The notes beneath the pieces were generated by a model, which was not told the DNA's origin, searched no databases, and saw only the letters and a program-made list of their open reading frames with translations. From positions 1 to 25,302 of IMG/VR virus record IMGVR_UViG_3300025655_005251: 25,302 nucleotides of DNA. One strand, 5' to 3'. This DNA is from a virus. A program made the translations under genes and the position numbers. Shown here piece after piece: positions 757 through 25,302 of this stretch (within the stretch, counting starts at the first letter, position 1; each line of letters starts with the position of its first letter).

Positions 757-1446
757 ATGATTTATTTATTGGCATATCCAAGAAGTGGTAGTTCTTTTTT
801 TAGATATCTTTTAGGTTTTTTAACCGAATCTAAACCCATGCAACCTGACGGTCATTGTGAGTTGGATAACCTTTTAAAGGATTATTATAAAAAAGAACCA
901 TACATTAAAAAATTTCATAAACCCGTTGAATCTTTCACACATATGATACAACAAAATGGTAATGATAAATTAGTTTTATTATTACGAGACCCAGTTGAGA
1001 ATATATTATCATTCGCATTATCAAATGAAAATTTAAATAAAAAGAATTTTTCAGATTCTTTTATCAATAATTTTGTTAATAAAGAATTTAATAATGGAAG
1101 TTTTGTATTTCACAGATACACAAAATCTTTTTTAGAAAATATTAATTTTTATAAAAACTGGCAAGGTGAAAAAACTGTAGTTAATTATGAAAACTTAATG
1201 ACTGATATTGAGAATGAACTATTAAAACATTGTGATTTTTTTGGTTACTCAAAAGAAAGAGTTGATTTACTAATGTCTGATATTGAATATCATCGCAATC
1301 TAATGTTAAAAGAAAAAACAAAAAACACCGACCCTTTTTCAGTTAATACTAAAGGTAAAGATTTAAATAAATTTAAAAATACACTTAACGAAGATAATTT
1401 ACTATATTTAGAAAAAATGGTTTCTAATAATGTCGGTGAATTATGA
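757..1446 (+). CDS. PAPS-dependent sulfotransferase family protein
   Basis: A 229-residue protein with the two hallmarks of the sulfotransferase family. The N-terminal 5'-phosphosulfate loop is YPRSGSSFFRYL at residues 7-18. The 3'-phosphate-binding segment is LLLRDPVENILS around residues 74-85, with R77 and S85 in the expected places. Family members move sulfate from PAPS to a hydroxyl on a carbohydrate or other acceptor; the acceptor cannot be read from sequence. The gene overlaps the UDP-galactopyranose mutase gene by 17 bases and follows the upstream gene by one base, so translation is probably coupled. Its place among fucose and galactofuranose genes suggests a glycan acceptor. No signal peptide or membrane segment is visible, so it should be cytoplasmic. 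Confidence 0.82.
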   Translation: MIYLLAYPRSGSSFFRYLLGFLTESKPMQPDGHCELDNLLKDYYKKEPYIKKFHKPVESFTHMIQQNGNDKLVLLLRDPVENILSFALSNENLNKKNFSDSFINNFVNKEFNNGSFVFHRYTKSFLENINFYKNWQGEKTVVNYENLMTDIENELLKHCDFFGYSKERVDLLMSDIEYHRNLMLKEKTKNTDPFSVNTKGKDLNKFKNTLNEDNLLYLEKMVSNNVGEL

Positions 1447-2530
1447 TTTTCTTATAGTTGGTTCAGGATTTTTTGGTTCAATATGTGCTTATGAATTAAA
1501 AAAATTAGGATACTCAGTATGCGTAATTGACTCAAGAAACCATATTGGTGGAAATTGTTATACTCAAAAAGAATCAAATATTAATGTTCACAAATACGGA
1601 CCACATATATTTCATACTTCAGATGAAGAAGTGTGGAAATGGATTAATCAGTTTGTCGAATTTAATAACTTTACACTTAGACCTGTTGCAAATTACAAAG
1701 GGGAAATTTATTCATTACCTTTTAACATGTGGACATTCTCAAAAATGTGGGGAATAACACAACCTGAAGAAGCAAAAAAAATTATTGAAACACAATCATT
1801 AGAAATAACAGGTACACCAAAAAATTTAGAAGAACAAGCAATTAGATTAGTCGGTACTGACATATATCAAAAACTTATAAAGGGTTATACCGAAAAACAA
1901 TGGAAGAAATCTTGTAAGGAATTACCACCTGAAATAATTAAAAGATTACCTGTTAGATTTACATACGATAACAACTATTTTAATGACAAGTATCAGGGTA
2001 TACCGATTGGTGGATATACTCAAATTTTTGAGAAACTTTTAAAAGATGTTGATGTATTGTTAGATACAGATTTTTTCGAAGATGAAATACCAAACTATAA
2101 TAAATTAATATATACCGGACCAATAGACCGTTTTTATGATTATAAATTTGGTGAGCTAGAGTATAAAACTACAGATTTTATACATCATACTCTTGATGGT
2201 ATTTCTAATTTTCAGGGAACTGCTATGATGAATTTTACATCTAAAGATGTTGAACATACTCGCATAATTGAACACAAACATTTTGAAGATACGGAATCAT
2301 ATAACACCGTTATTACTTACGAGTACCCAAAGGATTATAAAGCCGGTAAAACCGAACCATTGTATCCTGTTAATGATAAAGAAAATAATGAAAAGTACCT
2401 AAAGTATAAATCTTTATCCGAAAATGAAGAAAATATTTACTTCGGTGGTAGATTAGGTGAATATAAGTATTATGATATGCATCAAGTTATAAAATCAGCA
2501 TTAGATTTTATAAGAAAAATAAATAACTAA
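1430..2530 (+). CDS. glf: UDP-galactopyranose mutase
   Basis: A flavoenzyme converting UDP-galactopyranose to UDP-galactofuranose, the donor for galactofuranose in bacterial surface glycans. Length (366 residues) equals that of typical bacterial enzymes. The FAD-binding start GSGFFGS is at residues 11-17, followed by the acidic end of the second strand and RNHIGGN (36-42), then the family signature GPHIFHT (57-63). The mid-region YTEKQW and RLPVRFTYDNNYF (172-184) carry the arginines that bind the substrate diphosphate; R176 corresponds to the conserved active-site arginine. The ATG at 1430 lies inside the sulfotransferase gene. It gives the usual short N-terminus before the dinucleotide fold, so the 17-base overlap is probably real. 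The product should be cytoplasmic. Confidence 0.95.
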   Translation: MSVNYDFLIVGSGFFGSICAYELKKLGYSVCVIDSRNHIGGNCYTQKESNINVHKYGPHIFHTSDEEVWKWINQFVEFNNFTLRPVANYKGEIYSLPFNMWTFSKMWGITQPEEAKKIIETQSLEITGTPKNLEEQAIRLVGTDIYQKLIKGYTEKQWKKSCKELPPEIIKRLPVRFTYDNNYFNDKYQGIPIGGYTQIFEKLLKDVDVLLDTDFFEDEIPNYNKLIYTGPIDRFYDYKFGELEYKTTDFIHHTLDGISNFQGTAMMNFTSKDVEHTRIIEHKHFEDTESYNTVITYEYPKDYKAGKTEPLYPVNDKENNEKYLKYKSLSENEENIYFGGRLGEYKYYDMHQVIKSALDFIRKINN

Positions 2531-2555
2531 AATAAATAACTAAAAAAAATAAAAA

Positions 2556-3452
2556 ATGAGATTAATAACAGGAAATGGATTGGTTGGTTCAGCGTTAGAT
2601 GGGGACGTAAAAATCTCGTCACACCACTTTGATTTAAGGGACACGGAAAGTGTTAAATCAATGTTTGAATTTTATAAACCTACAGAGGTTATACATACAG
2701 CCGCGAAAGTTGGAGGTTTGGGTTCAAATATGAAATATAAAGGAGAATATTTTTACGATAACATTATGATGAATACTAATGTTATTGAGCAAGCCAGACA
2801 AAATGGTGTTCAAAAATTAGTTGCCTTTTTATCTACTTGTGTTTTCCCTGATGATGTTGAATACCCCCTAACGGAAAAGAAAATTCATTTAGGTGAACCA
2901 CACTTTTCAAACAACGCATACGCATACGCTAAAAGAATGACGGATGTTCAAATTAGAGCTTATAGAGAACAATATGGTCTACAATACAAATCGGTAATCC
3001 CGACAAACATTTATGGACCTAATGACAATTTCTCATTAACACATGGTCACGTGATGCCGATGCTAATACACAAAATGTATTTAGCTCAGAAGAACAACAC
3101 TCCTTTTGAGGTTTGGGGTTCGGGTAAACCATTAAGAGAGTTTATCTTCTCTAAAGATGTTGCACAGTTAACTGAATGGGTTATGAAGAATTATGATGAA
3201 GATGAACCTATTATTCTATCTACATCAGAAGAAATATCAATTAGAGATTTGGTTGATTTGCTTGTTCAGGAATTTAATTTTAAGGGTGAGGTTATTTTTG
3301 ATTCATCTAAACCTGATGGACAATTTAGAAAACCATCAGATAATAGTAAGATTAAAAATTATCTTCCTGAATTTAAATTTACACCAATAGAAGAAGGAAT
3401 AAAAGAAACAGTAAAATGGTTTATTGAAAATTATGAAATTACAAGAAAATAA
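2556..3452 (+). CDS. fcl: GDP-L-fucose synthase
   Basis: A short-chain dehydrogenase/epimerase that makes GDP-L-fucose from GDP-4-keto-6-deoxymannose with NADPH, the second step after Gmd, which is encoded just downstream. Seen in the 298-residue product: the nucleotide-binding GNGLVG loop at 6-11, the family-specific AAKVGGLGSN segment (49-58), STC at 93-95 (catalytic Ser and Cys positions of the family), and the Y122-x-x-x-K126 pair. The N-terminus begins immediately at the first strand, slightly shorter than cellular homologues, but no key residue is missing. It overlaps gmd by about 20 bases. An A-rich 25-base leader without a Shine-Dalgarno motif precedes the ATG. Confidence 0.93.
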   Translation: MRLITGNGLVGSALDGDVKISSHHFDLRDTESVKSMFEFYKPTEVIHTAAKVGGLGSNMKYKGEYFYDNIMMNTNVIEQARQNGVQKLVAFLSTCVFPDDVEYPLTEKKIHLGEPHFSNNAYAYAKRMTDVQIRAYREQYGLQYKSVIPTNIYGPNDNFSLTHGHVMPMLIHKMYLAQKNNTPFEVWGSGKPLREFIFSKDVAQLTEWVMKNYDEDEPIILSTSEEISIRDLVDLLVQEFNFKGEVIFDSSKPDGQFRKPSDNSKIKNYLPEFKFTPIEEGIKETVKWFIENYEITRK

Positions 3453-4419
3453 AGTCGCATTAATTACAGGAATTAACGGACAAGACGGTTCGTATTTATC
3501 TGAATTTTTATTAGAAAAAGGTTATACCGTTTATGGTATATTAAAGAGAAATTCTGTTGCAGAAAACCAAACAGCAAGATTAGATAATGTATACGATAAA
3601 ATTAAATTATTTTATGCGGATATGACTGATTTATCGTCATTAATATCTGTTATACAAAAAATAATGCCAGATGAGATTTATAACTTAGCTGCACAATCAC
3701 ACGTAAGAATTTCATTTGACCAACCAATATATACTGCAAATGTTACGGGTCTCGGTACTTTAAATTTACTTGAAGCTGTGAGGTTAATTAAACCAAACGC
3801 TAAGGTCTATCAAGCATCATCTTCTGAGATGTTTGGTAACAGTATAGATGAAGATGGTTTCCAAAGAGAAACAACACCTTTAAATCCAGTATCACCTTAT
3901 GGTTGTGCTAAGGTTTTTTCATATAACATTTGTAGAAATTATCGTAACTCTTATGGAATGTTTATTTCAAATGGTATTCTATTTAATCACGAATCACCAC
4001 GAAGAGGAACAAACTTTGTAACAAATAAAGTTGCAAAAGAGGCAGTAAAAATTAAGTTAGGGTTATCTAATGAACTTAAGTTAGGTAACTTAGATGCGAC
4101 TCGTGATTGGGGACACGCTAAAGATTATGTTGAGGCAATGTGGATGATTTTACAACAAGAAAATTCTGATGATTATGTATGTTCAACAGGTATTTCACAC
4201 TCAGTTAGAGATTTATGTGAATATACATTTTCAAAACTTGGACTTAATTATGAGGACTATGTAAAGATGGATGAAAAGTTTTTAAGACCTGAAGAGTTAC
4301 ATGATTTAAAAGGTGACTCAACAAAATTAAGGTCACACACAGGATGGAACCCTGTTTACACTTTCGAATCTATGATGGATGAAATGATTGATTATTGGTT
4401 AAATTATTATACATTATAG
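3433..4419 (+). CDS. gmd: GDP-mannose 4,6-dehydratase
   Basis: Converts GDP-mannose to GDP-4-keto-6-deoxymannose, the first step toward GDP-L-fucose. I use the ATG at 3433; a TTG nine bases upstream is in frame, but ATG gives a normal N-terminus running straight into the fold. In the resulting 328-residue protein the NADP-binding GINGQDG is at 13-19. The catalytic SSSEMFG is at 129-135, with E132. The Y156-GCA-K160 pair follows, and the Gmd signature NHESPRRG is at 185-192. All catalytic residues are present, so the enzyme should be active. It is the partner of the preceding fcl gene, which it overlaps by 20 bases; together they form a complete GDP-fucose route from host GDP-mannose. Confidence 0.95.
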   Translation: MKLQENKVALITGINGQDGSYLSEFLLEKGYTVYGILKRNSVAENQTARLDNVYDKIKLFYADMTDLSSLISVIQKIMPDEIYNLAAQSHVRISFDQPIYTANVTGLGTLNLLEAVRLIKPNAKVYQASSSEMFGNSIDEDGFQRETTPLNPVSPYGCAKVFSYNICRNYRNSYGMFISNGILFNHESPRRGTNFVTNKVAKEAVKIKLGLSNELKLGNLDATRDWGHAKDYVEAMWMILQQENSDDYVCSTGISHSVRDLCEYTFSKLGLNYEDYVKMDEKFLRPEELHDLKGDSTKLRSHTGWNPVYTFESMMDEMIDYWLNYYTL

Positions 4420-7111: not shown

Positions 7112-7915
7112 ATGGAAAATTTTAACGTATCGGTAATTTTACCAATAGAATCATCTAAACATAAGGATTTTACTGAATATTATGAAAAATGTATTCAATC
7201 AATATTAAATCAACAAACATCAGTTAATGAAGTTGTTATTGTACACTCAGGTGAAGAAACTCTCCAAAATATTGTTGAGAATTTTGATTATAGTGGTTTA
7301 ACAGTAAACATTGTTAAAAATGATGGTTCTACAGATTTTGCATCTCAAGTAAACTTAGGTGTAAGTAATTCAAAATCACAGTGGATATCAATCTTAGAAT
7401 TTGATGACGAATATGCATCAATATGGTTTAAAAATGTATCAAGATATAGTAAAGCATATCCCGAAATGCAAGGGTTTTTACCTATTGTTGTTGATGTTGA
7501 TAACAGAGGAGTGTTTGCAGGTTTCACTAATGAAGCCACATTTGCAGCTAGTATGAATAGTGAGATTGGTATTTTAACAAATGAAGTTTTATTAAATTAC
7601 CAAAACTTCCAAAGTAGTGGTATGGTAATTAAGAAAGAAATTTTTGAAGATTTTGGTGGTATTAAACCATCAATGAAACTAACTTTTGTTTATGAATTCT
7701 TATTAAGATTAACGTATAATTCAGTGAACATTATGACCATTCCAAGAATTGGTTACAAACACACAAACTTAAGAGAAGGTTCTATTTTTTGGAACTACAA
7801 AAATGGTAGTACAATTATAACTGAGGACGAGGTTAAGTTTTGGTTAGAATCGGCAAAAAAGGAACATTTCTTTACCAACGATAGAGGTATAAAATACGAA
7901 CCACAAGATGCTTAA
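7112..7915 (+). CDS. Family 2 glycosyltransferase
   Basis: A 267-residue GT-A fold glycosyltransferase. It opens with a typical GT2 strand (VSVILPIE, 6-13), then a CIQSILNQ helix (27-34) and VVIVHSGEE (41-49). The metal/nucleotide site is represented by EFDDEYA near 96-102 in place of the usual DxD. A later segment around SSGMVIKKEIFEDFGG matches the second conserved region in which GT2 enzymes describe the acceptor site. It follows the GT-B gene by two bases and shares one base with the sigma-factor start (TAATG), so it is transcribed with both. Donor and acceptor are unknown; the upstream nucleotide-sugar genes suggest fucose or galactofuranose as possibilities. Confidence 0.8.
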   Translation: MENFNVSVILPIESSKHKDFTEYYEKCIQSILNQQTSVNEVVIVHSGEETLQNIVENFDYSGLTVNIVKNDGSTDFASQVNLGVSNSKSQWISILEFDDEYASIWFKNVSRYSKAYPEMQGFLPIVVDVDNRGVFAGFTNEATFAASMNSEIGILTNEVLLNYQNFQSSGMVIKKEIFEDFGGIKPSMKLTFVYEFLLRLTYNSVNIMTIPRIGYKHTNLREGSIFWNYKNGSTIITEDEVKFWLESAKKEHFFTNDRGIKYEPQDA

Positions 7916-8670
7916 TGTTTTTATCAGAACTAAGTGCAACATCTGTTAATAGTGAAGTTAAAAAAAGAGGTCGTAAACCAAAAGAAACGACTAATTATTT
8001 CGCTGAGCGTGAGGAACATGCGGTAAGAATGTTCCTCACTGCCAGTACTATGTCTGAAAAAAACGATATATATAATGAATTTTTAAAAGCACCTCTTGAT
8101 AAAATGATTGAGTCAATTATTAGGAGGTACAAACTATATAGAAAAGATATGGATTTTAGAGAAATCCATCATGATACTCATTCATTTTTAATTACAAAAG
8201 TAGATAAGTTTAAACCGGCAAGAAATAAAAAGGCATACTCTTATTTTGGTACTATATGTAAAAATTATTTGATGGGTCAGATAATAAAAGACCAAAAAGA
8301 AACTAATAGAAAAATTTCATACGAAGACATATCAAGTACATTAGAAAATAGACCTGATATGATATATTATTTAGAGTATGAAAAAGTAGAGCCGGATAAG
8401 ATAATTCAAGAATTTTTAGACCAACTTAAAGATTTTATTAAAACCGAGAATTTAAACATTAATGAAAAAAAGTTAGGGTTGGCATTGGTTGAGTTATTTG
8501 ATAATTATGAAGAAATTTTTATAGGGACAGATAATAATAAATTTAATAAAAATATTATTTTATTGTCTTTAAGAGAAATGACAAACCTTTCAACCAAAGA
8601 AATAAGGTCGTCTATGAAAAAATTCAAAAATCTTTACTATGAGTTAGTAAGAACAATGAGTAATCAATAA
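7915..8670 (+). CDS. Phage late-transcription sigma factor, gp55-like
   Basis: A 251-residue protein resembling the region-2 core of sigma-70-type proteins found in T4-like phages (gp55, the late sigma factor). Evidence is the segment FLKAPLDKMIESIIRRY (57-72), where sigma region 2.1 normally has its core-binding helices, and the aromatic/basic KKAYSYFGTICKNYLMGQII (105-124), which matches region 2.3/2.4 in position and chemistry. A basic AT-hook-like KKRGRKPKE lies at 16-24. T4 gp55 is shorter (185 residues); the extra length is in the C-terminal third. In T4, gp55 with gp33 and gp45 recognises TATAAATA. A recurrent ATATTTAT[A/T] element in this window is the likely target here. The identification is by pattern and context, not by alignment. 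Confidence 0.65.
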   Translation: MFLSELSATSVNSEVKKRGRKPKETTNYFAEREEHAVRMFLTASTMSEKNDIYNEFLKAPLDKMIESIIRRYKLYRKDMDFREIHHDTHSFLITKVDKFKPARNKKAYSYFGTICKNYLMGQIIKDQKETNRKISYEDISSTLENRPDMIYYLEYEKVEPDKIIQEFLDQLKDFIKTENLNINEKKLGLALVELFDNYEEIFIGTDNNKFNKNIILLSLREMTNLSTKEIRSSMKKFKNLYYELVRTMSNQ

Positions 8671-17364: not shown

Positions 17365-18195
17365 ATGAAAAACACAGAAACGTACAATGAATTAGTTCAG
17401 AAGATGAGACAATTCTTCTTAAACAAAAACTTTAAAGAAGTTCCAACACAAAGTAGATTATCAATTTTGGCCGCATGTGAGAACCCACACTCAATTGCAA
17501 CCTTTAACTACAACGGTGAAATTTGGCCATTACCACAAACAGGTCAAATGTGGTTAGAGTATGAATTACTCAAAAATCCACAATGGGATGGTGTATTTTG
17601 TATATCAACTTCTTACAGACAAGAAAAAAACCCAATACCGGGTAGACATGAATTAATTTTCCCGATGTTTGAATTTGAATCTAAAGGTGGAATTACAGAA
17701 ATGTTAAAACTTGAATCTGAACTTTTAGAGTGGTTAGGGTTTGAGGAACCTGTTGAAGTAACTTATGACGATGTATGTGAAGAGTATGGTGGAGTTGAAA
17801 TATTAGAAAATGAACACGAACAAAGAATGTGGGAAGAAAAAGGACCTGTTATTTCATTACAACATTTTCCTCTAAGAACTAATCCATTTTGGAACATGAG
17901 AAATAAAAGTGGTGAAATCTTCAATAAAGTAGACGTTATCCTTTATGGACAAGAAACCATAGGTTCTGCTGAACGTTCTTGTGATGTAGAAGAAATGAGA
18001 CATATGTTCTACACTATTGAAGATGGTGGATATTCCGCCAAGTTGTTTGAACTATTTGGTAAAGAAAGAGTAGAAAAAGAATTAGAAGAGTTTTTATCTT
18101 TTAGATTTTTCCCTCGTTTTGGTGGTGGAATTGGTATGACTCGTTTAGCGAGAGCATATGAATTAATGAAAGAAGAACAATTAGCTGTAGTTTAA
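17365..18195 (+). CDS. Class II aminoacyl-tRNA-synthetase-like core (AsnRS/AsnA-type)
   Basis: A 276-residue catalytic core without an anticodon-binding domain. Class II motif 2 is visible as STSYRQEKN...GRHELIFPMFEFE (81-105, with R85, E87, R94, H95, E103). Motif 3 is GGGIGMTRLAR (253-263, with R260). The loop GQETIGSAERS (195-205) resembles the Asp/Asn-specific region of AspRS/AsnRS, and WPLPQTGQMWLE (54-65) resembles the GxGQ-type strand. The nearest relatives by pattern are stand-alone asparaginyl-tRNA-synthetase-like enzymes, some of which make asparagine instead of charging tRNA. Missing tRNA-binding parts argue against normal aminoacylation. It is flanked by terminators on both sides and forms its own unit. 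Confidence 0.75.
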   Translation: MKNTETYNELVQKMRQFFLNKNFKEVPTQSRLSILAACENPHSIATFNYNGEIWPLPQTGQMWLEYELLKNPQWDGVFCISTSYRQEKNPIPGRHELIFPMFEFESKGGITEMLKLESELLEWLGFEEPVEVTYDDVCEEYGGVEILENEHEQRMWEEKGPVISLQHFPLRTNPFWNMRNKSGEIFNKVDVILYGQETIGSAERSCDVEEMRHMFYTIEDGGYSAKLFELFGKERVEKELEEFLSFRFFPRFGGGIGMTRLARAYELMKEEQLAVV

Positions 18196-18266: not shown

Positions 18267-20126
18267 TTATCTCAATTCTCTCAAGTCGAATGTTCTAACA
18301 CCATCAACGATGATTCTACCATAGAAACGGTTGTTAACCATTTTCTTAGCGTATCTTGTCATGATACCCTTGATAGGTGTAAAGTTGAATGGGTTGTACA
18401 TAGTTGGAGTCAACTGAAGAGGTACATATGGTGCGTAAACGTAACCTGTATCCAACAAAGAGTTACCTTTGTGTCCTAACAATACTGTGTTAGGTGGGAA
18501 GTATGGGTCACGGTAAACTTGATATCTACCAGCTAATGTACCAACTCTCTCAATACCCATGTTGTACTGGTCCTGGTCAGGAGATGCATTTGAAACGTGG
18601 AAGTACTCCAAGTCATCAAAGATAGCTGAAATTTCAGAAGATACAACAATCCAGTTAGCTCCACCTCTCAATGTAGATTTGTGAATCTGAGCTGAGATTT
18701 GGTTGATAGCTGTAATCAACGTTTGGTTCCAGTCCTTTTGAGTGTACTGAGTTAATGGATTTGCAGAAGTACCTCTCTTCCATCCGTTGTAATCCCAACG
18801 TAATGTCCAAGCCGCACCTTTTCTCAAATCTCTTAAGATTTCACGGTCAATTTCTGCCGCAACTTGCTCAGACAATAAAGCTGTTAATTCAGCTTCAGCG
18901 TCGATGTTGTGGAAAGCAGAAACGTCTTGTGCTAATTCAGGTGACCATTGAGCTCTCAACTTTCTTTCTGTAACAGAAACAGTTACTGACTCTAAGTCAA
19001 ATGAAACTTCACCAATTTGGTCTTCAAATTCCAAGTTAGCATATACTCTGTATGTTGCGTTGAATGAATTTAACGCAGCTGTAGTGTGAGCGTCACTTGC
19101 AGGTAATGTGTAACCTGAGTAACCATCGATAGAAGCTGCTCCGATAGAAGCTGGAACTTGTGTATCGATTTCTAAGTAAATTACACCGTTAGCATCACAG
19201 ATGTTATCGTATGCACCACCGTTACCTTTGTAAGAACCACTGTAGAATGTAGTTGATTGTTGAGTTCCGTATTGTACAATACCTTTACCGTATTTCTGAG
19301 TAACAACTCTGAAGATAAGGTCACCAGTACCTAAACCTGAGAATGTAGTGTTAGCACTTGAATTAACGTTAATAGTTAAATCAGATAAGAATGATTCGTT
19401 ATCCATTTCTTGACCGTCAGGACCGATAAGTTTACCAGCACCTGCGTTTGAGAAACCTGACAATGCAATGATAACTTTTCTGTGGATAGCTCCACCTGTA
19501 GCAGCACCACCTGTAGTACCACCGTTAGTTGTAGTGTAAAGACCAGCATTCAACTCACCTGTATTTGAGTTCCAAAGTTGAGTTACAGTTGCTACTGTTA
19601 CAGCACTGAACTTACCCTTTGAGTAATCAAATAATCCAGGAGGGTCTAATGAAGGTTCGTTACCTTCGTAGAAACGGTCATACAAGTTCTTACCTGTTGA
19701 GTAACCTGAGTCTGGAGTTTGTGCTCCACCTGCGTTAGGTGCTCCAAAAGGTGCGTAGTGGTTACCACCAGCAGCACTTTCGTTTTGGTATGACTGAATT
19801 TTAGGTACAAAGTAGAACAATTTACCGATAGGTAAGTTCATAGCTTGTACTGATACGATGTCGTTAGCCAACAATTTAGAGAATACTCTTCTCACGATTG
19901 GAAAAACTACAGTTTCGAATGAACCTGAGTTATCTGATGACGACGCTTCGTTGATTAAATGTGACGCTTGGTTTTCGTATAACTGCGCCATGTTTTCTTT
20001 AACGTGACCTTTAAGACCCTCTAAGAATCCTAATTTGTCCCATTTGTTGATTGTGTCTTCTTTGATAACTTTCAAGTGCTTAAGACCGATGTTACCAACA
20101 AGACCTGATTCTAATAATGCTCCCAT
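18267..20126 (-). CDS. Major capsid protein, gp23-like
   Basis: A 619-residue homologue of T4 gp23. Two conserved regions are plain: SFETVVFPIVRRVFSKLLAN and DIVSVQAMNLPIGKLFYF (69-106), and the C-terminal QWSPELAQDVSAF with AEAELTALLSEQVAAEIDRE, the P-domain helix set. A prohead-protease site I-N-E/A lies at 58-61, at nearly the same place as T4 E65/A66, so the mature capsid protein should start at A61. It is longer than T4 gp23 (521 residues); the extra residues lie between the conserved blocks and probably form surface loops. The base composition looks more GC-rich than that of its neighbours by eye, as expected for a very highly expressed gene. It is 26 bases downstream of the scaffold gene. 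Confidence 0.95.
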   Translation of the reverse strand: MGALLESGLVGNIGLKHLKVIKEDTINKWDKLGFLEGLKGHVKENMAQLYENQASHLINEASSSDNSGSFETVVFPIVRRVFSKLLANDIVSVQAMNLPIGKLFYFVPKIQSYQNESAAGGNHYAPFGAPNAGGAQTPDSGYSTGKNLYDRFYEGNEPSLDPPGLFDYSKGKFSAVTVATVTQLWNSNTGELNAGLYTTTNGGTTGGAATGGAIHRKVIIALSGFSNAGAGKLIGPDGQEMDNESFLSDLTINVNSSANTTFSGLGTGDLIFRVVTQKYGKGIVQYGTQQSTTFYSGSYKGNGGAYDNICDANGVIYLEIDTQVPASIGAASIDGYSGYTLPASDAHTTAALNSFNATYRVYANLEFEDQIGEVSFDLESVTVSVTERKLRAQWSPELAQDVSAFHNIDAEAELTALLSEQVAAEIDREILRDLRKGAAWTLRWDYNGWKRGTSANPLTQYTQKDWNQTLITAINQISAQIHKSTLRGGANWIVVSSEISAIFDDLEYFHVSNASPDQDQYNMGIERVGTLAGRYQVYRDPYFPPNTVLLGHKGNSLLDTGYVYAPYVPLQLTPTMYNPFNFTPIKGIMTRYAKKMVNNRFYGRIIVDGVRTFDLRELR

Positions 20127-20152: not shown

Positions 20153-21505
20153 TTATTTTGTGATTTTATTCATCAAATCCTTCATTCTTAAGAATTGAGG
20201 ATTCTCATAAGTTTTGCTCTCAATAAGATTTGTTGCAGAACCTTTAGAAGGTGACTTCTGTACTTTAGATTCAACTGATTCTTTAACTACAGTTTCTTTA
20301 CCTTCATAATCTTCTTTCAATGTCTTATATAAAGCTTTTGATTCCTTCAATGTTTCAACAGAGTCAAAACGTCTTAGGATGTTTATTTTTTCTTGCTTTG
20401 TAGTTGAGTGTTCTGTGAACAAACGAGTAGCGTAAGCCAAGTTTGAATTAAATACAGCAACTTCATTTAACTTTTCTCTAAAGATGTTCAATGCTTTTCT
20501 GTACTCTTCGTTTTTAGCTCTTAAAGAAGTAACTTCAGCTTTTAACTCACTTTCGTTAACAGGTTTTACTTTCATTTTTGGTAATGACTTCTTAGATGCG
20601 TCATTTCTTGAACCGTTTCCTAAAGTGTGTGCAGCTTCAGTAGTTTCTGCGTCATTCATGTAACCCATACTTTTATCTCCTGAGTATTTTCTATTTCCCA
20701 TAGCTTTTTCCATTCCTTCACTTTCTTTTCTTCTGTCAGCAAATGACTGTTTCATTTTTTTGCCATGGTCTTTCATACCCAAAGAATCGTCAAGGTCTGC
20801 ATTATAACCTTCTTCTACTTCTTCTTCGTTCCATCCTTCATCAACCATTTCGGTATCTTCTTCATCATCCTCTTCACCAATCTCAATCTCGTAAACTACA
20901 TCATCATCACCTTCTTCAACATCCATCATTTCAGATGTCATATCAAGTTCTAATTCTTCGTCTTCTGATTCAGTTTGGATAATGTACTCAACATTTTCTT
21001 CTTCATCATTAAGGTGGATTTCGTCACCGTCTTTTTTAACGATAATTCCGTCTTCATCACCCATTGCTTTGAAAACCTTTAAGATTTCATCGTCAGATGC
21101 TCCTGTTAAGTCAAGAGGAAGTAAAACTTCTTCTTCATCATCAACTTCCAACTCTCCACCAGGTAAGTCCATTCCTAACATGTCACCCATGTCAAGACCA
21201 CCTAATTCATCGTCTTCCATTTCAGAATCTTCATCAGAATCCATGTCACCCATTTCAGGTTCCATTTCAACTTCTTCTTCGTCTTCCATGTCAACGTCAA
21301 CATCTTGTTCTGTTACGTCACCCATTTCGACTTCCGTGTCAACCATTTCATCTTCTTCAGATAATGATTCTTTTACTAATTCACTGATTTCTTCCTTCAT
21401 AGTAGAAGCAAGTATTCCTTTTGCATTCTCAGTTACGGCTTCTTCCAAATTTCTCATTTGTAATAATGCCTCTTCAACTAATGATTTTTTAGTATTTTCT
21501 GCCAT
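20153..21505 (-). CDS. Prohead core scaffold protein, gp22-like
   Basis: A 450-residue protein in the gp22 position between protease gp21 and capsid gp23. Residues about 45-250 are extremely acidic (runs of Glu/Asp with Met), as expected of a scaffold that is later digested. Residues about 320-400 form a helix with heptad spacing (AEVTSLRAKNEEYRKALNIF), typical of scaffold coiled coils, and the C-terminal 20 residues are basic (FLRMKDLMNKITK). It is longer than T4 gp22 (269 residues) because of the acidic middle. Assignment rests on position and composition, since scaffolds diverge quickly. It has its own promoter-like element 33 bases upstream. Opposite-strand open frames over it are composition artefacts. 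Confidence 0.85.
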   Translation of the reverse strand: MAENTKKSLVEEALLQMRNLEEAVTENAKGILASTMKEEISELVKESLSEEDEMVDTEVEMGDVTEQDVDVDMEDEEEVEMEPEMGDMDSDEDSEMEDDELGGLDMGDMLGMDLPGGELEVDDEEEVLLPLDLTGASDDEILKVFKAMGDEDGIIVKKDGDEIHLNDEEENVEYIIQTESEDEELELDMTSEMMDVEEGDDDVVYEIEIGEEDDEEDTEMVDEGWNEEEVEEGYNADLDDSLGMKDHGKKMKQSFADRRKESEGMEKAMGNRKYSGDKSMGYMNDAETTEAAHTLGNGSRNDASKKSLPKMKVKPVNESELKAEVTSLRAKNEEYRKALNIFREKLNEVAVFNSNLAYATRLFTEHSTTKQEKINILRRFDSVETLKESKALYKTLKEDYEGKETVVKESVESKVQKSPSKGSATNLIESKTYENPQFLRMKDLMNKITK

Positions 21506-21861: not shown

Positions 21862-22590
21862 TTAATACCCTAAATAATCGGATAATTTTTTCATTAAGTC
21901 AAGCGATTTATTTAAACCTTGTCCACCATCTATTCTTGGTTCCTGTGCTCTTAACTTAGTTTCCTCCTCAAGATTCTCTTCGTATTTGTTTTTATCTTCT
22001 TTATTTAAGAACAAATAAGCACCTGGTGTAGATGGTGATGATACTAAGTCAAAACAAATTAATTCAAAATCATCTTGTACTTCATTACGCTCACCTTTTT
22101 TAACTAAAGAACCAACACCACGAGATGATACACCCATTGTAACCCCTTGTCTCATTAAGTTTGCAGCCATGTCACCAGGACAAGAAACAACACCTCTTTC
22201 ATGATAACCAGGAGAAGTTAATAATTTAATTTTACCCATTAAGGTATTACCTTCCCACCACATATCAGTGATAAGGTGAGATACACGGTCTAAATCAATA
22301 AGTGAAGATTCAGGGTGATTTAATTCTGATATAGATAAACCTTTATCGATTGCCTTTCTATAATTTTCAGCTTCTCTACGTAATATTTTTTCAGGATAGA
22401 TACGACCATTTCTGTTTGGCGTATCAAACTTTTGTAATACAGCATAAAAAACAAATGGCTTAGAATGGTCTAATTGACCATATGATTCTTTAATAACTTC
22501 TGCGTTTCTTGAATCATTTGGTGAAATAAAACCAGCATCCCATTCTACTAATATACCTTTTCCTGAATCGTTTGGACCTAATATTTTCAT
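21862..22590 (-). CDS. Prohead core protease, gp21-like
   Basis: A 242-residue homologue of the T4 prohead protease gp21 (serine protease of the herpesvirus-assemblin type). Conserved blocks in order: NGRIYPEKILRREAENY (61-77), ELNHPESSLIDLDRVSHLI (89-107) with the likely catalytic H92, GVTMGVSSRGVGSLVKKG (149-166) with the likely catalytic Ser at 155 or 156, and ELICFDLVSSPSTPGAYL (176-193). It should cut scaffold and capsid proteins after I/L-x-E. It is slightly longer than T4 gp21 (212) because of a Lys/Glu-rich C-terminal tail. A promoter-like element precedes it by 12 bases. Confidence 0.95.
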   Translation of the reverse strand: MKILGPNDSGKGILVEWDAGFISPNDSRNAEVIKESYGQLDHSKPFVFYAVLQKFDTPNRNGRIYPEKILRREAENYRKAIDKGLSISELNHPESSLIDLDRVSHLITDMWWEGNTLMGKIKLLTSPGYHERGVVSCPGDMAANLMRQGVTMGVSSRGVGSLVKKGERNEVQDDFELICFDLVSSPSTPGAYLFLNKEDKNKYEENLEEETKLRAQEPRIDGGQGLNKSLDLMKKLSDYLGY

Positions 22591-22621: not shown

Positions 22622-23008
22622 TTAATATAGATGTAAAACCACATCATACTCAGTTAAATTATTAGGTAATACTTTCTTTACCATATTATCTATATTCTCA
22701 ACAATGAATATTTTTATCAACATACCTAATGGTAAATCATCAGAAGTATATCCATCAATTATTGAATATATTTTGGCAAATTCACTAACATCAACATTAT
22801 CATGTAATATCTTATTGACTTTAGCTTCTATAGATATATCATCAATATCCCCAACTAATTCTATATCTTTTAAATAAACTTTAGTATTACCATGTTCATA
22901 TACCATTTTACTTGGCATATAATTGTTTAAAACCCCTAACTGGTCTTTTTCTTCAGTTAGGGATTTTTTTATGTTTTTTAATTGTTTTTCTGAAATTACA
23001 ATTTTCAC
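22622..23008 (-). CDS. Hypothetical head-region protein, GTG start
   Basis: A 128-residue protein starting at GTG (23008-23006). I accept GTG because the resulting N-terminus, MKIVISEKQLKNIKKSL, is a pattern often seen at the start of marine phage proteins, and because a promoter-like element sits 13 bases upstream. No domain is recognised; it is acidic with a hydrophobic C-terminal helix. It lies between a 146-residue unknown and the protease in the head cluster. An unusual 9-bp hairpin lies inside its early codons (22934-22962). Confidence 0.62.
   Translation of the reverse strand: MKIVISEKQLKNIKKSLTEEKDQLGVLNNYMPSKMVYEHGNTKVYLKDIELVGDIDDISIEAKVNKILHDNVDVSEFAKIYSIIDGYTSDDLPLGMLIKIFIVENIDNMVKKVLPNNLTEYDVVLHLY
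22934..22962. repeat. Perfect 9-bp inverted repeat inside a coding sequence
   Basis: CCCTAACTG (22934-22942) and CAGTTAGGG (22954-22962) around an 11-base loop. It lies in codons about 16-25 of the 128-residue gene, and seven T follow on the plus strand (22964-22970). It could stall transcription of antisense RNA, or fold in the mRNA to affect translation. Confidence 0.65.
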
Positions 23009-23021
23009 AACAAAGTTTTAT

Positions 23022-23030
23022 AATAAATAT
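23022..23030 (-). promoter_or_regulatory. Late-promoter-like ATATTTATT element
   Basis: The minus strand reads GATATTTATTATAAAA, 13 bases before the GTG of the 128-residue gene and touching the stop codon of the gene upstream. It supports the GTG start. Confidence 0.55.
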
Positions 23031-23470
23031 CAAACTTTGGTTGTTTTTGTTTTTGATAATGTAAAATAGGGTGAAGTGTAAAGTTCATCAGTATAAACAG
23101 AACTTACTATTTTTTTTATTTTATCTCTTAACATAATTGATTTAAAATCTTCATTTTTATTTTTTAAAAATAATGTCATTTCTAAATTTAAAAACGAACG
23201 TTTATCTAATTGTATTCCACTTGTCCTTAAATCTAAATCTACGATTGAATTATTTTCAAATGTAAACATGTCTACACTCTCTAATAAATTATGTTGTATT
23301 TGTCTTTTTAAATTACCCGTTACTCGGTCCCAATTTGATACTTCTTTTGTGGGTTCAACCCATGATTGTATTACAATATAAATTGATTTTAGTTCTTTAG
23401 AATCTACTGTTCCATAAAAACATTTAGCATTTTCAAAAATATTTAATTTTGAAGTTTTTCCTTTTTTCAT
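23030..23470 (-). CDS. Hypothetical head-region protein
   Basis: A 146-residue protein with alternating hydrophobic strands (YIVIQSWVEP, FLNLEMTLFLKN) and a basic C-terminus; I do not recognise the fold. It starts in the region shared with the divergent bS21 gene and precedes the 128-residue gene by 21 bases. Its promoter looks like a host-type element, unlike the other head genes, so it may be made earlier. Position in the prohead gene cluster hints at a virion or assembly role, nothing more. Confidence 0.6.
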   Translation of the reverse strand: MKKGKTSKLNIFENAKCFYGTVDSKELKSIYIVIQSWVEPTKEVSNWDRVTGNLKRQIQHNLLESVDMFTFENNSIVDLDLRTSGIQLDKRSFLNLEMTLFLKNKNEDFKSIMLRDKIKKIVSSVYTDELYTSPYFTLSKTKTTKV

Positions 23471-23504
23471 TCATCTCGCTATTTCTTTTGTTTATTATAT
23501 GTTG

Positions 23505-23536
23505 AAAATATAAAACATTTTTTGTTCTAAGTCAAA
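23505..23536 (-). promoter_or_regulatory. Bacteroidetes-type host promoter
   Basis: On the minus strand, TTTG (23536-23533) is followed after 20 bases by TATATTTT (23512-23505), one mismatch from the TAnnTTTG -7 element. It would drive the 146-residue gene and lies back to back with the bS21 promoter. Confidence 0.5.
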
Positions 23537-23538
23537 AC

Positions 23539-23567
23539 TTGACAAAAGAGAATATATTTATTAAGAT
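23539..23567 (+). promoter_or_regulatory. Promoter region of the phage bS21 gene
   Basis: TTGACA (23539-23544) lies 17 bases before TAAGAT (23562-23567), and an ATATTTATT late-like element (23554-23562) overlaps it. The ATG is only 11-12 bases after the -10 element, so the leader would be a few bases. No Shine-Dalgarno sequence is visible. Confidence 0.5.
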
Positions 23568-23578
23568 AATATTCATCT

Positions 23579-23773
23579 ATGATAGTAATTACAGTCGGTA
23601 AAAACGAAAATATTGAAAGGGCTTTAAAAAGGTATAAGTATAAAGTCATTAAGTCAAAACAAATGGAACAATTACGAGACCGACAGGAGTTTAAAAAGAA
23701 ATGTGTTAAGAAAAGAGAGAAACTAAAAAAAGCCAAATACGTTCAAAAATTAAAAGATAACGAAAGAGATTAA
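23579..23773 (+). CDS. rpsU: Ribosomal protein bS21
   Basis: A 64-residue basic protein matching small-subunit ribosomal protein bS21 along its whole length. It has a short opening strand (MIVITVGKNENIERALKRYK), then the characteristic K/R-rich helices with QLRDRQEF (31-38), and KREKLKKAKYVQKL (45-58), a C-terminal pattern I associate with Bacteroidetes bS21. bS21 binds near the 3' end of 16S rRNA. In Bacteroidetes it is part of the pocket that hides the anti-Shine-Dalgarno sequence. Phage-encoded bS21 is known from several aquatic viruses and is thought to join host ribosomes. This copy is on the plus strand within a minus-strand head module, between its own promoter and a strong terminator. 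Confidence 0.9.
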   Translation: MIVITVGKNENIERALKRYKYKVIKSKQMEQLRDRQEFKKKCVKKREKLKKAKYVQKLKDNERD

Positions 23774-23776
23774 ACA

Positions 23777-23802
23777 AAAAAGTCCCCATTTGGGGACTTT
23801 TT
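23777..23802. terminator. Bidirectional terminator between bS21 and the membrane protein gene
   Basis: GTCCCC / GGGGAC (23782-23787 with 23792-23797), loop ATTT, extended by five A/T pairs on each side, giving a T-run on both strands. It ends the bS21 gene and the convergent minus-strand gene. Confidence 0.9.
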
Positions 23803-23824: not shown

Positions 23825-24037
23825 TTATTTTTGGAATTTTGAAGTTAACCAATTCTTTAAGATATCCCAGTTACGAGTTGCGAAAACTCCAAATGAAAAA
23901 CCTGCCCAAATCTTATAACCCATAATCCAAAGTACTAAACCTACCAATAGACCTAATACTCCTTCTACACCATTTGCTTCAATCCAATTTTTGCATATAG
24001 CATAGATTTTTTTAATAAATTCTAAAACTTTTTTCAT
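23825..24037 (-). CDS. Small membrane protein in the prohead region
   Basis: A 70-residue protein with a basic, amphipathic first 20 residues and a long hydrophobic segment (GVLGLLVGLVLWIMGYKIW, about 26-44) followed by FSFGVFATRNW. This gives one clear membrane segment, perhaps two, and a basic C-terminus. It could be a holin-like or inner-membrane anchor protein; no family is recognised. It overlaps the 245-residue gene by four bases (ATGA), so the two are translated together, and it ends at the terminator shared with bS21. It occupies the region where T4 carries small prohead genes 67 and 68, but shows no likeness to them. Confidence 0.65.
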   Translation of the reverse strand: MKKVLEFIKKIYAICKNWIEANGVEGVLGLLVGLVLWIMGYKIWAGFSFGVFATRNWDILKNWLTSKFQK

Positions 24038-24771
24038 AATCCGTTATTTAATTGTTTAAGTTTATAAAGTGATACTAAATCACTTTTTGATTCTGAAATT
24101 TTTTCAATAGTTTTGTTTATTCTTTCTGTAATCTCAGAATCGGTGGATTCATTTAAATTTGTATTTAATTTACTTAAAACATTCTCTTTAATTTCCTCAA
24201 ATTCTTTTTTCACTTCTTCTTTAGAAAGTGATAATAATTTTTTTAACTCTTCCTTTTCAGATTCATTAATATTTTCAAATTCTTTATTAAATGAATTTGT
24301 AGCTATTTTTAACATTGATGATAATGGAATATTAATTGACTCTGTTACAACTTTTTCTTCTTTTTTAGATGCAATTAAATTTTTAATATTCTTTTTTGAT
24401 TCTAAAACTTTCTCTAAATTTTTTATTGATTTGTTATTGTAAACAACATTATCAATATCTGAGTAGTTGTTTGAAATATCTTCTTTTAAAATAGAATCAA
24501 TCCACTCAGTTAATGAGATTATATCTTTATTACTTTTTTCAATTAAACTCTGTAATTGTTCAATTGATTCATTTACATAATCTCCGGCAATTTCATTATC
24601 AACACCTTTTTTAGTTGATAAGTCATCATAGATATAATAGATTTTAGAAATGTTTTTATTTTCTAAAACATTCTTTTTGAAGTTTTTTAAATGGTTCTTA
24701 AATTCACTCTTACCGTAGAGTTTAACCATCGATTCTTCAATTTTAGTTTTAATTACTCCGAATTGTTTCAT
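24034..24771 (-). CDS. Helical head-region protein between portal and protease
   Basis: A 245-residue, Lys/Glu/Asn-rich, nearly all-helical protein starting MKQFGVIKTKIEESMVKLYG. It has several I/L-N-E-S sequences (for example INESE and LNEST in the C-terminal third) that fit the I/L-x-E rule of prohead protease sites, though such tripeptides are common. Its place just after the portal gene corresponds to the prohead core genes in T4, so a scaffold or internal head role is a reasonable inference. A promoter-like element 12 bases before the ATG overlaps the portal stop codon. It is co-translated with the membrane protein gene. Confidence 0.6.
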   Translation of the reverse strand: MKQFGVIKTKIEESMVKLYGKSEFKNHLKNFKKNVLENKNISKIYYIYDDLSTKKGVDNEIAGDYVNESIEQLQSLIEKSNKDIISLTEWIDSILKEDISNNYSDIDNVVYNNKSIKNLEKVLESKKNIKNLIASKKEEKVVTESINIPLSSMLKIATNSFNKEFENINESEKEELKKLLSLSKEEVKKEFEEIKENVLSKLNTNLNESTDSEITERINKTIEKISESKSDLVSLYKLKQLNNGL

Positions 24772-24783
24772 AACATTTTATTT

Positions 24784-24792
24784 TATAAATAT
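24784..24792 (-). promoter_or_regulatory. Late-promoter-like ATATTTATA element
   Basis: The minus strand reads AATATTTATAAAATAAAAT, 12 bases before the ATG at 24771 and overlapping the last base of the portal stop codon. It is almost identical to the element before gp21. Confidence 0.6.
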
Positions 24793-25302
24793 TACGAATT
24801 CAACAACTCGCTCAATTTGTCGTCTATTTCGTTTAATGATTTCTTACCCTTTGATAAATCTATAGAATCTATACCATTAATCATATCATCTTCTAATATC
24901 AGATTTAAATCATCCATTTTTCTTGATTCAGGTGCTAATTCAGGTGCCGGTGCTGCTTCACCACCAGGTTCAGGTGTTTCAGGTGCTGGTGGTGTTCCTC
25001 CACCCCCCAAGTCACCCCCCAAGTCGCCGAATCCTGTATCAGCCGGTTCTGTTACTTCACCCTCAGGAGTTGCACTACCACCTTCACCAGGTTTGTTACC
25101 GTATAACTTATCAATGTTAGCGAATATACCTGTCTTAGTGATAACCTCAGCTGTCTTTTCAAGTTCAGCTGCGACCGCTTTTTCAATTCTTTGTTGTTGG
25201 ATGTCTAACTTAATTTCTTCATCAGAGAATCCAAGAATATGTTTCTTAGCCCAAGATGATGAAACAGGTAGAATACCATTACCGGGGTCTGTTGTTGCAT
25301 CA
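24792..25302 (-). CDS. Portal vertex protein gp20-like, C-terminal part only
   Basis: The minus-strand frame is open to the window end, so the gene starts beyond it; 169 C-terminal residues are visible. The stretch SSWAKKHILGFSDEEIKLDI (visible residues 13-32) matches the end of the T4 portal protein, where a 'K-ILxxTDEEI' motif closes the clip/stem region. After a helical segment comes a tail of Pro, Gly, Ala and Glu (about 75-125), then a short acidic helical end (DDLNLILEDDMINGIDSIDL). Such a tail is not found in T4 gp20. The gene heads the head module in T4 order (gp20, gp21, gp22, gp23). An internal TTG at 25022 is not the start. Confidence 0.75.
   Translation of the reverse strand, partial: DATTDPGNGILPVSSSWAKKHILGFSDEEIKLDIQQQRIEKAVAAELEKTAEVITKTGIFANIDKLYGNKPGEGGSATPEGEVTEPADTGFGDLGGDLGGGGTPPAPETPEPGGEAAPAPELAPESRKMDDLNLILEDDMINGIDSIDLSKGKKSLNEIDDKLSELLNS

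Follow-up and report, generated by a model that had tools for sequence, protein, structure and literature searches.

A phage bS21 gene lacking a Shine-Dalgarno sequence in a T4-type head-gene cluster and its possible bearing on host rpsU control

Identity and setting of the phage bS21 gene

Why would a T4-type phage keep a gene for ribosomal protein bS21 among its head genes, and would this gene obey the control that applies to the host copy, rpsU? These questions are raised by an IMG/VR virus record of 25,302 bases (the window, analysed over its whole length), in which the segment 23471-23802, singled out in a preliminary description, comprises a divergent intergenic region, the bS21 gene and a terminator. 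The preliminary description had read the product as a Bacteroidetes-like bS21 and had made this depend on a profile match to Ribosomal_S21. The product does match the Pfam family Ribosomal_S21 (PF01165) above the cut-off (42.6 bits against 27, E 4.9e-11, model positions 2-54 of 55), as well as NCBIfam TIGR00030 (S21p; 33 bits, cut-off 28.95) and PHROG 21469 'ribosomal protein S21', and its top PDB match is 7jil chain z (E 3e-12), from the Flavobacterium johnsoniae ribosome (PMC9723584). All four matches agree, the top solved relative is the F. johnsoniae protein and Tyr54 is present; judged by its sequence, the product is a bS21 of Bacteroidota type. Annotated phage records gave three matches, all of them weak and partial.

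The bS21 gene sits antisense within a T4-type head cluster, as had been described: the Gp23, Peptidase_S77 and portal genes all lie on the minus strand. The cluster consists of the following genes.

18267..20126, minus strand: major capsid protein (gp23; PF07068, 4.1e-72)
20153..21505, minus strand: probable scaffold, an acidic protein before the capsid gene, assigned by position and composition, without a family match
21862..22590, minus strand: prohead protease (gp21 type), Peptidase_S77 (PF03420, 1.8e-23)
22622..23008, minus strand: hypothetical head-cluster gene with a TATTTAT motif, kept in relatives
23030..23470, minus strand: conserved divergent neighbour of bS21, possibly the bS21_CN of Chen et al., adjoining bS21 in nearly all relatives
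23579..23773, plus strand: bS21 coding sequence (phage rpsU), 64 aa, ATG start, based on PF01165, TIGR00030, PHROG 21469, PDB 7jil and dN/dS
23825..24037, minus strand: small hydrophobic protein, restricted to the window clade
24034..24771, minus strand: conserved hypothetical beyond bS21, on the opposite strand to it, with a TATTTAT motif
24792..25302, minus strand: C-terminal part of gp20, the portal protein, truncated where the window ends and assigned to phrog_213 via relatives

The portal assignment comes from full-length copies in two related loci, one of them near-identical to the window (L002, L003), both of which match phrog_213. For the neighbour protein, the predicted structure (pLDDT 84.6) gave no PDB match below E 0.001; its one match is viral and uncharacterised.

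Outside the cluster, the gene adjoining the capsid gene (17365-18195, plus strand) codes for 276 aa with a class II aminoacyl-tRNA synthetase-like catalytic domain (PF00152, 5.5e-12), a weak PDB match to asparaginyl-tRNA synthetase and a match at 1e-100 to PHROG 29758 (function unknown); it was seen in four fetched relatives, all near the window. Sugar or surface-modification genes (sulfotransferase, UDP-galactopyranose mutase, epimerase and GDP-mannose 4,6-dehydratase) occupy 757-4419 on the plus strand, and bS21 phages have been reported with sugar-related genes (Chen et al. 2022, PMC9723584). The gene at 7915-8670 was considered as a gp55-like late sigma factor and dropped, since family searches gave no support.

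Relatives were collected by two scans of IMG/VR, one with the window bS21 as the query (68 loci) and one with the neighbour gene (80 loci), with some contigs common to both sets. Among the 68 loci, nearly all of those that are sufficiently long keep one gene order, from capsid through scaffold, small gene, protease, hypothetical, neighbour, antisense bS21 and hypothetical to portal; some of the small genes are absent from the cluster in distant relatives. A profile search located bS21 in 76 of the 80 neighbour-gene loci, always on the opposite strand. In two of the remaining loci, L169 (2914-2998) and L197 (1010-1086), the neighbour and the gene beyond it are separated by a short gap without bS21, and bS21 is therefore dispensable for some phages; L201 (2367-2998) has no adjacent bS21 either, its longer gap being filled by other sequence, and the fourth such locus, L218, is cut. 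Hence bS21 usually belongs to the cluster without being obligatory there, and the neighbour gene is independent of it. L169, L197 and L201, as head clusters minus bS21, are natural comparators for the effect of bS21.

Shine-Dalgarno pairing and transcription signals

The pairing of the 24 nt before each start codon with the 16S tail AUCACCUCCUUUCU, one tail being assumed for all hosts and not read per genome, was scored with ViennaRNA, and values below -13 kcal/mol were regarded as an extended Shine-Dalgarno (SD) sequence. All 80 host rpsU genes of the first set, almost all from Flavobacteriaceae, lie at or below -13 kcal/mol (median -19.8), while a mock region farther upstream gives a median of +1.2. 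A second host set of 34 rpsU genes spanning the phylum, four genomes of which are shared with the first set and the rest of which are best-scoring matches from a phylum-wide draw, has 23 genes that reach -13. The window bS21 gene scores -1.1 kcal/mol, far from an extended SD, and the 23 phage copies comprising the window and its close relatives have a median of 0.1 and a minimum of -4.8. In the wider phage set (n=76) the median is -1.1, none reaches -13, and five reach -7 (-7.4 to -12.2), among them L189 and L199 (both -12.2) as well as L207 and L211. SD-poor starts extend to the whole window, where none of 28 genes scores -7 or below.

The preliminary description is thus borne out on the extended SD of cellular rpsU and on the SD-poor genes of the phage; its statement that the phage copy has no SD is accurate for the window and its closest relatives and has to be softened for the five wider relatives with moderate values. 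The related genes in L189 and L199 carry AAAGGAGG about 8 nt before the ATG, unlike other copies, a possible partial return to host-type control.

The intergenic region and the end of the gene contain these candidate signals.

23507..23535, minus strand: divergent sigma-70-like promoter, TTGACT-N17-TATATT, facing gene 23030-23470
23531..23543, no strand: inverted repeat GTCAA-AAC-TTGAC between the divergent genes, with a 3-4 nt spacer in close relatives
23539..23567, plus strand: alternative sigma-70-like promoter for bS21, TTGACA-N17-TAAGAT
23554..23562, plus strand: ATATTTATT, promoter-like element ahead of bS21, probably of late type, belonging to a recurrent motif
23777..23802, no strand: bidirectional intrinsic terminator, 11 pairs

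All eight copies of ATATTTATW in the window fall in noncoding sequence, which accounts for only 3% of its length, and each is in sense and shortly before a gene. Relatives have TATTTAT ahead of bS21, scaffold, protease, portal and two hypothetical genes, with far fewer copies in antisense. Among 72 distinct 70-nt regions upstream of bS21, which are related sequences and hence not independent, it occurs in sense in 68 and in antisense in two, where base shuffling predicts about 6, and it lies at a median of 19 nt from the ATG (quartiles 17-21). Because of this sense bias and narrow spacing, TATTTAT appears to behave like a promoter element; the genes behind it, together with the transcript data of Chen et al., suggest a late one. 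The T4 late promoter reads TATAAATA in sense, whereas the recurrent motif reads TATTTAT, and identity between the two is not claimed.

A dedicated promoter region had been proposed for bS21, which holds in that ATATTTATT belongs to this recurrent motif; on the sigma-70 side, a generic scan returned 32 sites against 30.7 expected, which is chance level, and the TTGACA-N17-TAAGAT site is therefore not relied on. Its TTGAC/TTGAT part is kept in close relatives and not in the wider set. The neighbour gene has no TATTTAT; by eye, a TTGACW-N17-TATAAT-like site stands in its place, and similar divergent-promoter-like sites were seen by eye in relatives, as well as in the bS21-less L169, L197 and L201. 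The inverted repeat may represent overlapping -35 elements or an operator. The bidirectional terminator, already noted in the preliminary description, is taken to be real because hairpins lie at the same place, often with differing sequence, in five close relatives (L003, L004, L005, L009 and L012); they are absent in more distant relatives.

Possible effects on ribosomes and on host rpsU

McNutt et al. 2023 (PMC9976891) found that ribosomes without bS21 favour rpsU mRNA and do worse on SD-less mRNAs, and that bS21-replete ribosomes translate rpsU poorly and SD-less messages better. These data and the SD contrast make it reasonable to predict that the phage gene would escape the autoregulation of rpsU. 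We consider it moderately probable that a late, SD-independent phage bS21 keeps ribosomes bS21-replete and should thereby hold host rpsU repressed. A T4-type myophage infecting Bacteroidota would supply bS21 itself and express it late, with transcription from a promoter-like element of the capsid-gene kind and a short SD-less leader. A start about 6 nt past TATTTAT would give a leader of about 10-15 nt, which leaves too little room for an extended SD of the host type. The phage protein should enter host ribosomes, since the features for the 30S platform and for hiding the anti-SD are kept, and should keep them bS21-replete, the state that would initiate best on SD-less mRNAs, as all phage genes of the window appear to be. 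With residue 54 retained, it should repress host rpsU and leave its own SD-less message untouched; as rpsU is a poor message for replete ribosomes and the phage copy can do without an SD, phage supply would continue with the host loop off. Identity, synteny, the SD contrast, the common motif, purifying selection and the single clade come directly from the sequences; late timing in this phage, published for relatives, is a prediction, as are ribosome incorporation and the effect on host rpsU.

The protein itself bears on this scheme and on its rivals. In a tree of 71 distinct phage and 90 Bacteroidota proteins, the phage copies fall on one side of a branch (support 99/98, 98% of bootstrap trees), in agreement with the separate clustering reported by Chen et al. 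2022; built on only 64 columns, with long branches and a long stem to the phage clade, this tree shows the separation of phage from bacterial bS21 but tells neither when nor how often the gene was acquired. For pairs of phage copies, dN/dS, where computable, is 0.03-0.31, rough ratios with many dS values near or above 1, and clearly points to a gene kept under purifying selection. At residue 54, the one that in F. johnsoniae stacks on the anti-SD, 62 phage copies (the window included) have Tyr, seven His and two Phe (n=71), and Lys40 and Arg46 are invariant. Since this residue, which helps to hide the anti-SD, is kept, a simpler reading is that ribosomes are held in their normal SD-blind state, and the SD contrast is most economically explained by repression of host rpsU, which requires no preference for phage messages. 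Moderate SDs in some relatives and the bS21-less L169 and L197 count against a regulatory reading. Across the wider phylum, many rpsU products (L234, L236 and L241 among others) have Arg, not an aromatic residue, near position 54, and several of these genes nevertheless keep extended SDs.

A different account, put forward by Chen et al. 2022 and in the preliminary description, is that of specialised ribosomes that favour phage messages; here an altered N-terminal helix and linker in the phage protein would shift mRNA choice. Compared with 63 distinct Flavobacteriaceae-type sequences, the phage proteins differ at positions 8-9, 21, 23-24, 27-28, 30, 34, 37 and 57, and Lys27-Gln28 is present in 71 of 71 phage copies; at position 27, 62 of the bacterial sequences carry Gly and one carries Lys, and at position 28 they carry Thr or Val. 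The single phage clade with its long stem fits this account, as does the divergence in the same helix noted earlier by Chen et al. 2022 (PMC9723584). However, this divergence may reflect age alone, no phage-specific leader common to all genes and absent from the host was found, and host mRNAs, being SD-less as well, would benefit equally; we regard such a shift as unlikely. Plain dosage, with phage bS21 merely replacing host bS21 that is lost or unmade late in infection and the missing SD having no regulatory meaning, would agree with the universal SD-less leaders of the window, with the strong conservation of core residues and with the speculation of McNutt et al. that removal of host bS21 might be something phages bring about (PMC9976891). 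It leaves the phage-specific invariant residues unexplained and is hard to tell from repression of host rpsU without experiment; we judge it rather improbable.

A role outside the ribosome, such as packaging of bS21 in the virion, which Chen et al. mention (PMC9723584), head assembly or RNA binding, would suit the fixed position among head genes and the promoter-like motif common to them, but the ribosome-type core residues, including aromatic position 54, are kept and the antisense gene has its own transcription signals, making this role very improbable.

An extension of the repression reading, in which the late SD-less phage bS21 fills ribosomes, hides the anti-SD, silences host rpsU and escapes the same control, would end in a lasting one-way replacement of host bS21 by the Lys27-Gln28 form; we regard it as somewhat less likely than not. 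Because the phage's genes are SD-less by default, the missing SD need not reflect selection for escape. The bS21 of Pelagibacter phage HTVC008M was shown to enter E. coli ribosomes, which favours incorporation of the phage protein; in vitro, however, such ribosomes had about 5% of the activity of the wild type (Mizuno et al. 2019, PMC6375957), and a benefit from replacement is therefore not assured.

Relation to known bS21 systems

The gene, its position and the takeover idea are already in Chen et al. 2022 (PMC9723584), and the window phage is one more member of their group. From 47 curated genomes, these authors described Bacteroidetes myophages in which bS21 lies on the reverse strand in a region of terminase, portal, protease and capsid genes, with late expression alongside structural genes and conserved Tyr54, and proposed replacement of host bS21 and ribosome takeover; their clades a-e follow the terminase phylogeny at more than about 70% terminase similarity, and among the genes of the window no terminase was identified. 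The window shares with these phages the opposite-strand bS21 in the capsid, protease and portal region, the flanking conserved hypotheticals, the Flavobacteriia-like bS21 with aromatic residue 54 and the separation of phage from bacterial copies, with no structural difference; a candidate for their bS21_CN also occurs here in three loci without adjacent bS21. HTVC008M likewise encodes a bS21 but belongs to another host group. Promoters, autoregulation and terminators receive no mention in the main text of Chen et al. 2022 (PMC9723584), and in the open-licence literature nothing combining these topics was found beyond Chen and McNutt.

New here are the SD contrast with host rpsU and the TATTTAT motif common to capsid-cluster genes, to which the comparison adds the single phage clade with its aromatic residue 54 and invariant Lys27-Gln28. 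Flavobacteriales rpsU (PMC9976891) and the phage gene share the protein family, Tyr54 and C-terminal residues, whereas an extended SD and autoregulation mark the former, and the latter has Lys27-Gln28 and no SD. Bacteroidota lend themselves to a clean test, since in Flavobacteriales rpsU is typically the sole strong-SD gene, and the SD contrast narrows the general takeover idea to a testable question, namely whether phage bS21 turns host rpsU off while the SD-less phage gene remains on.
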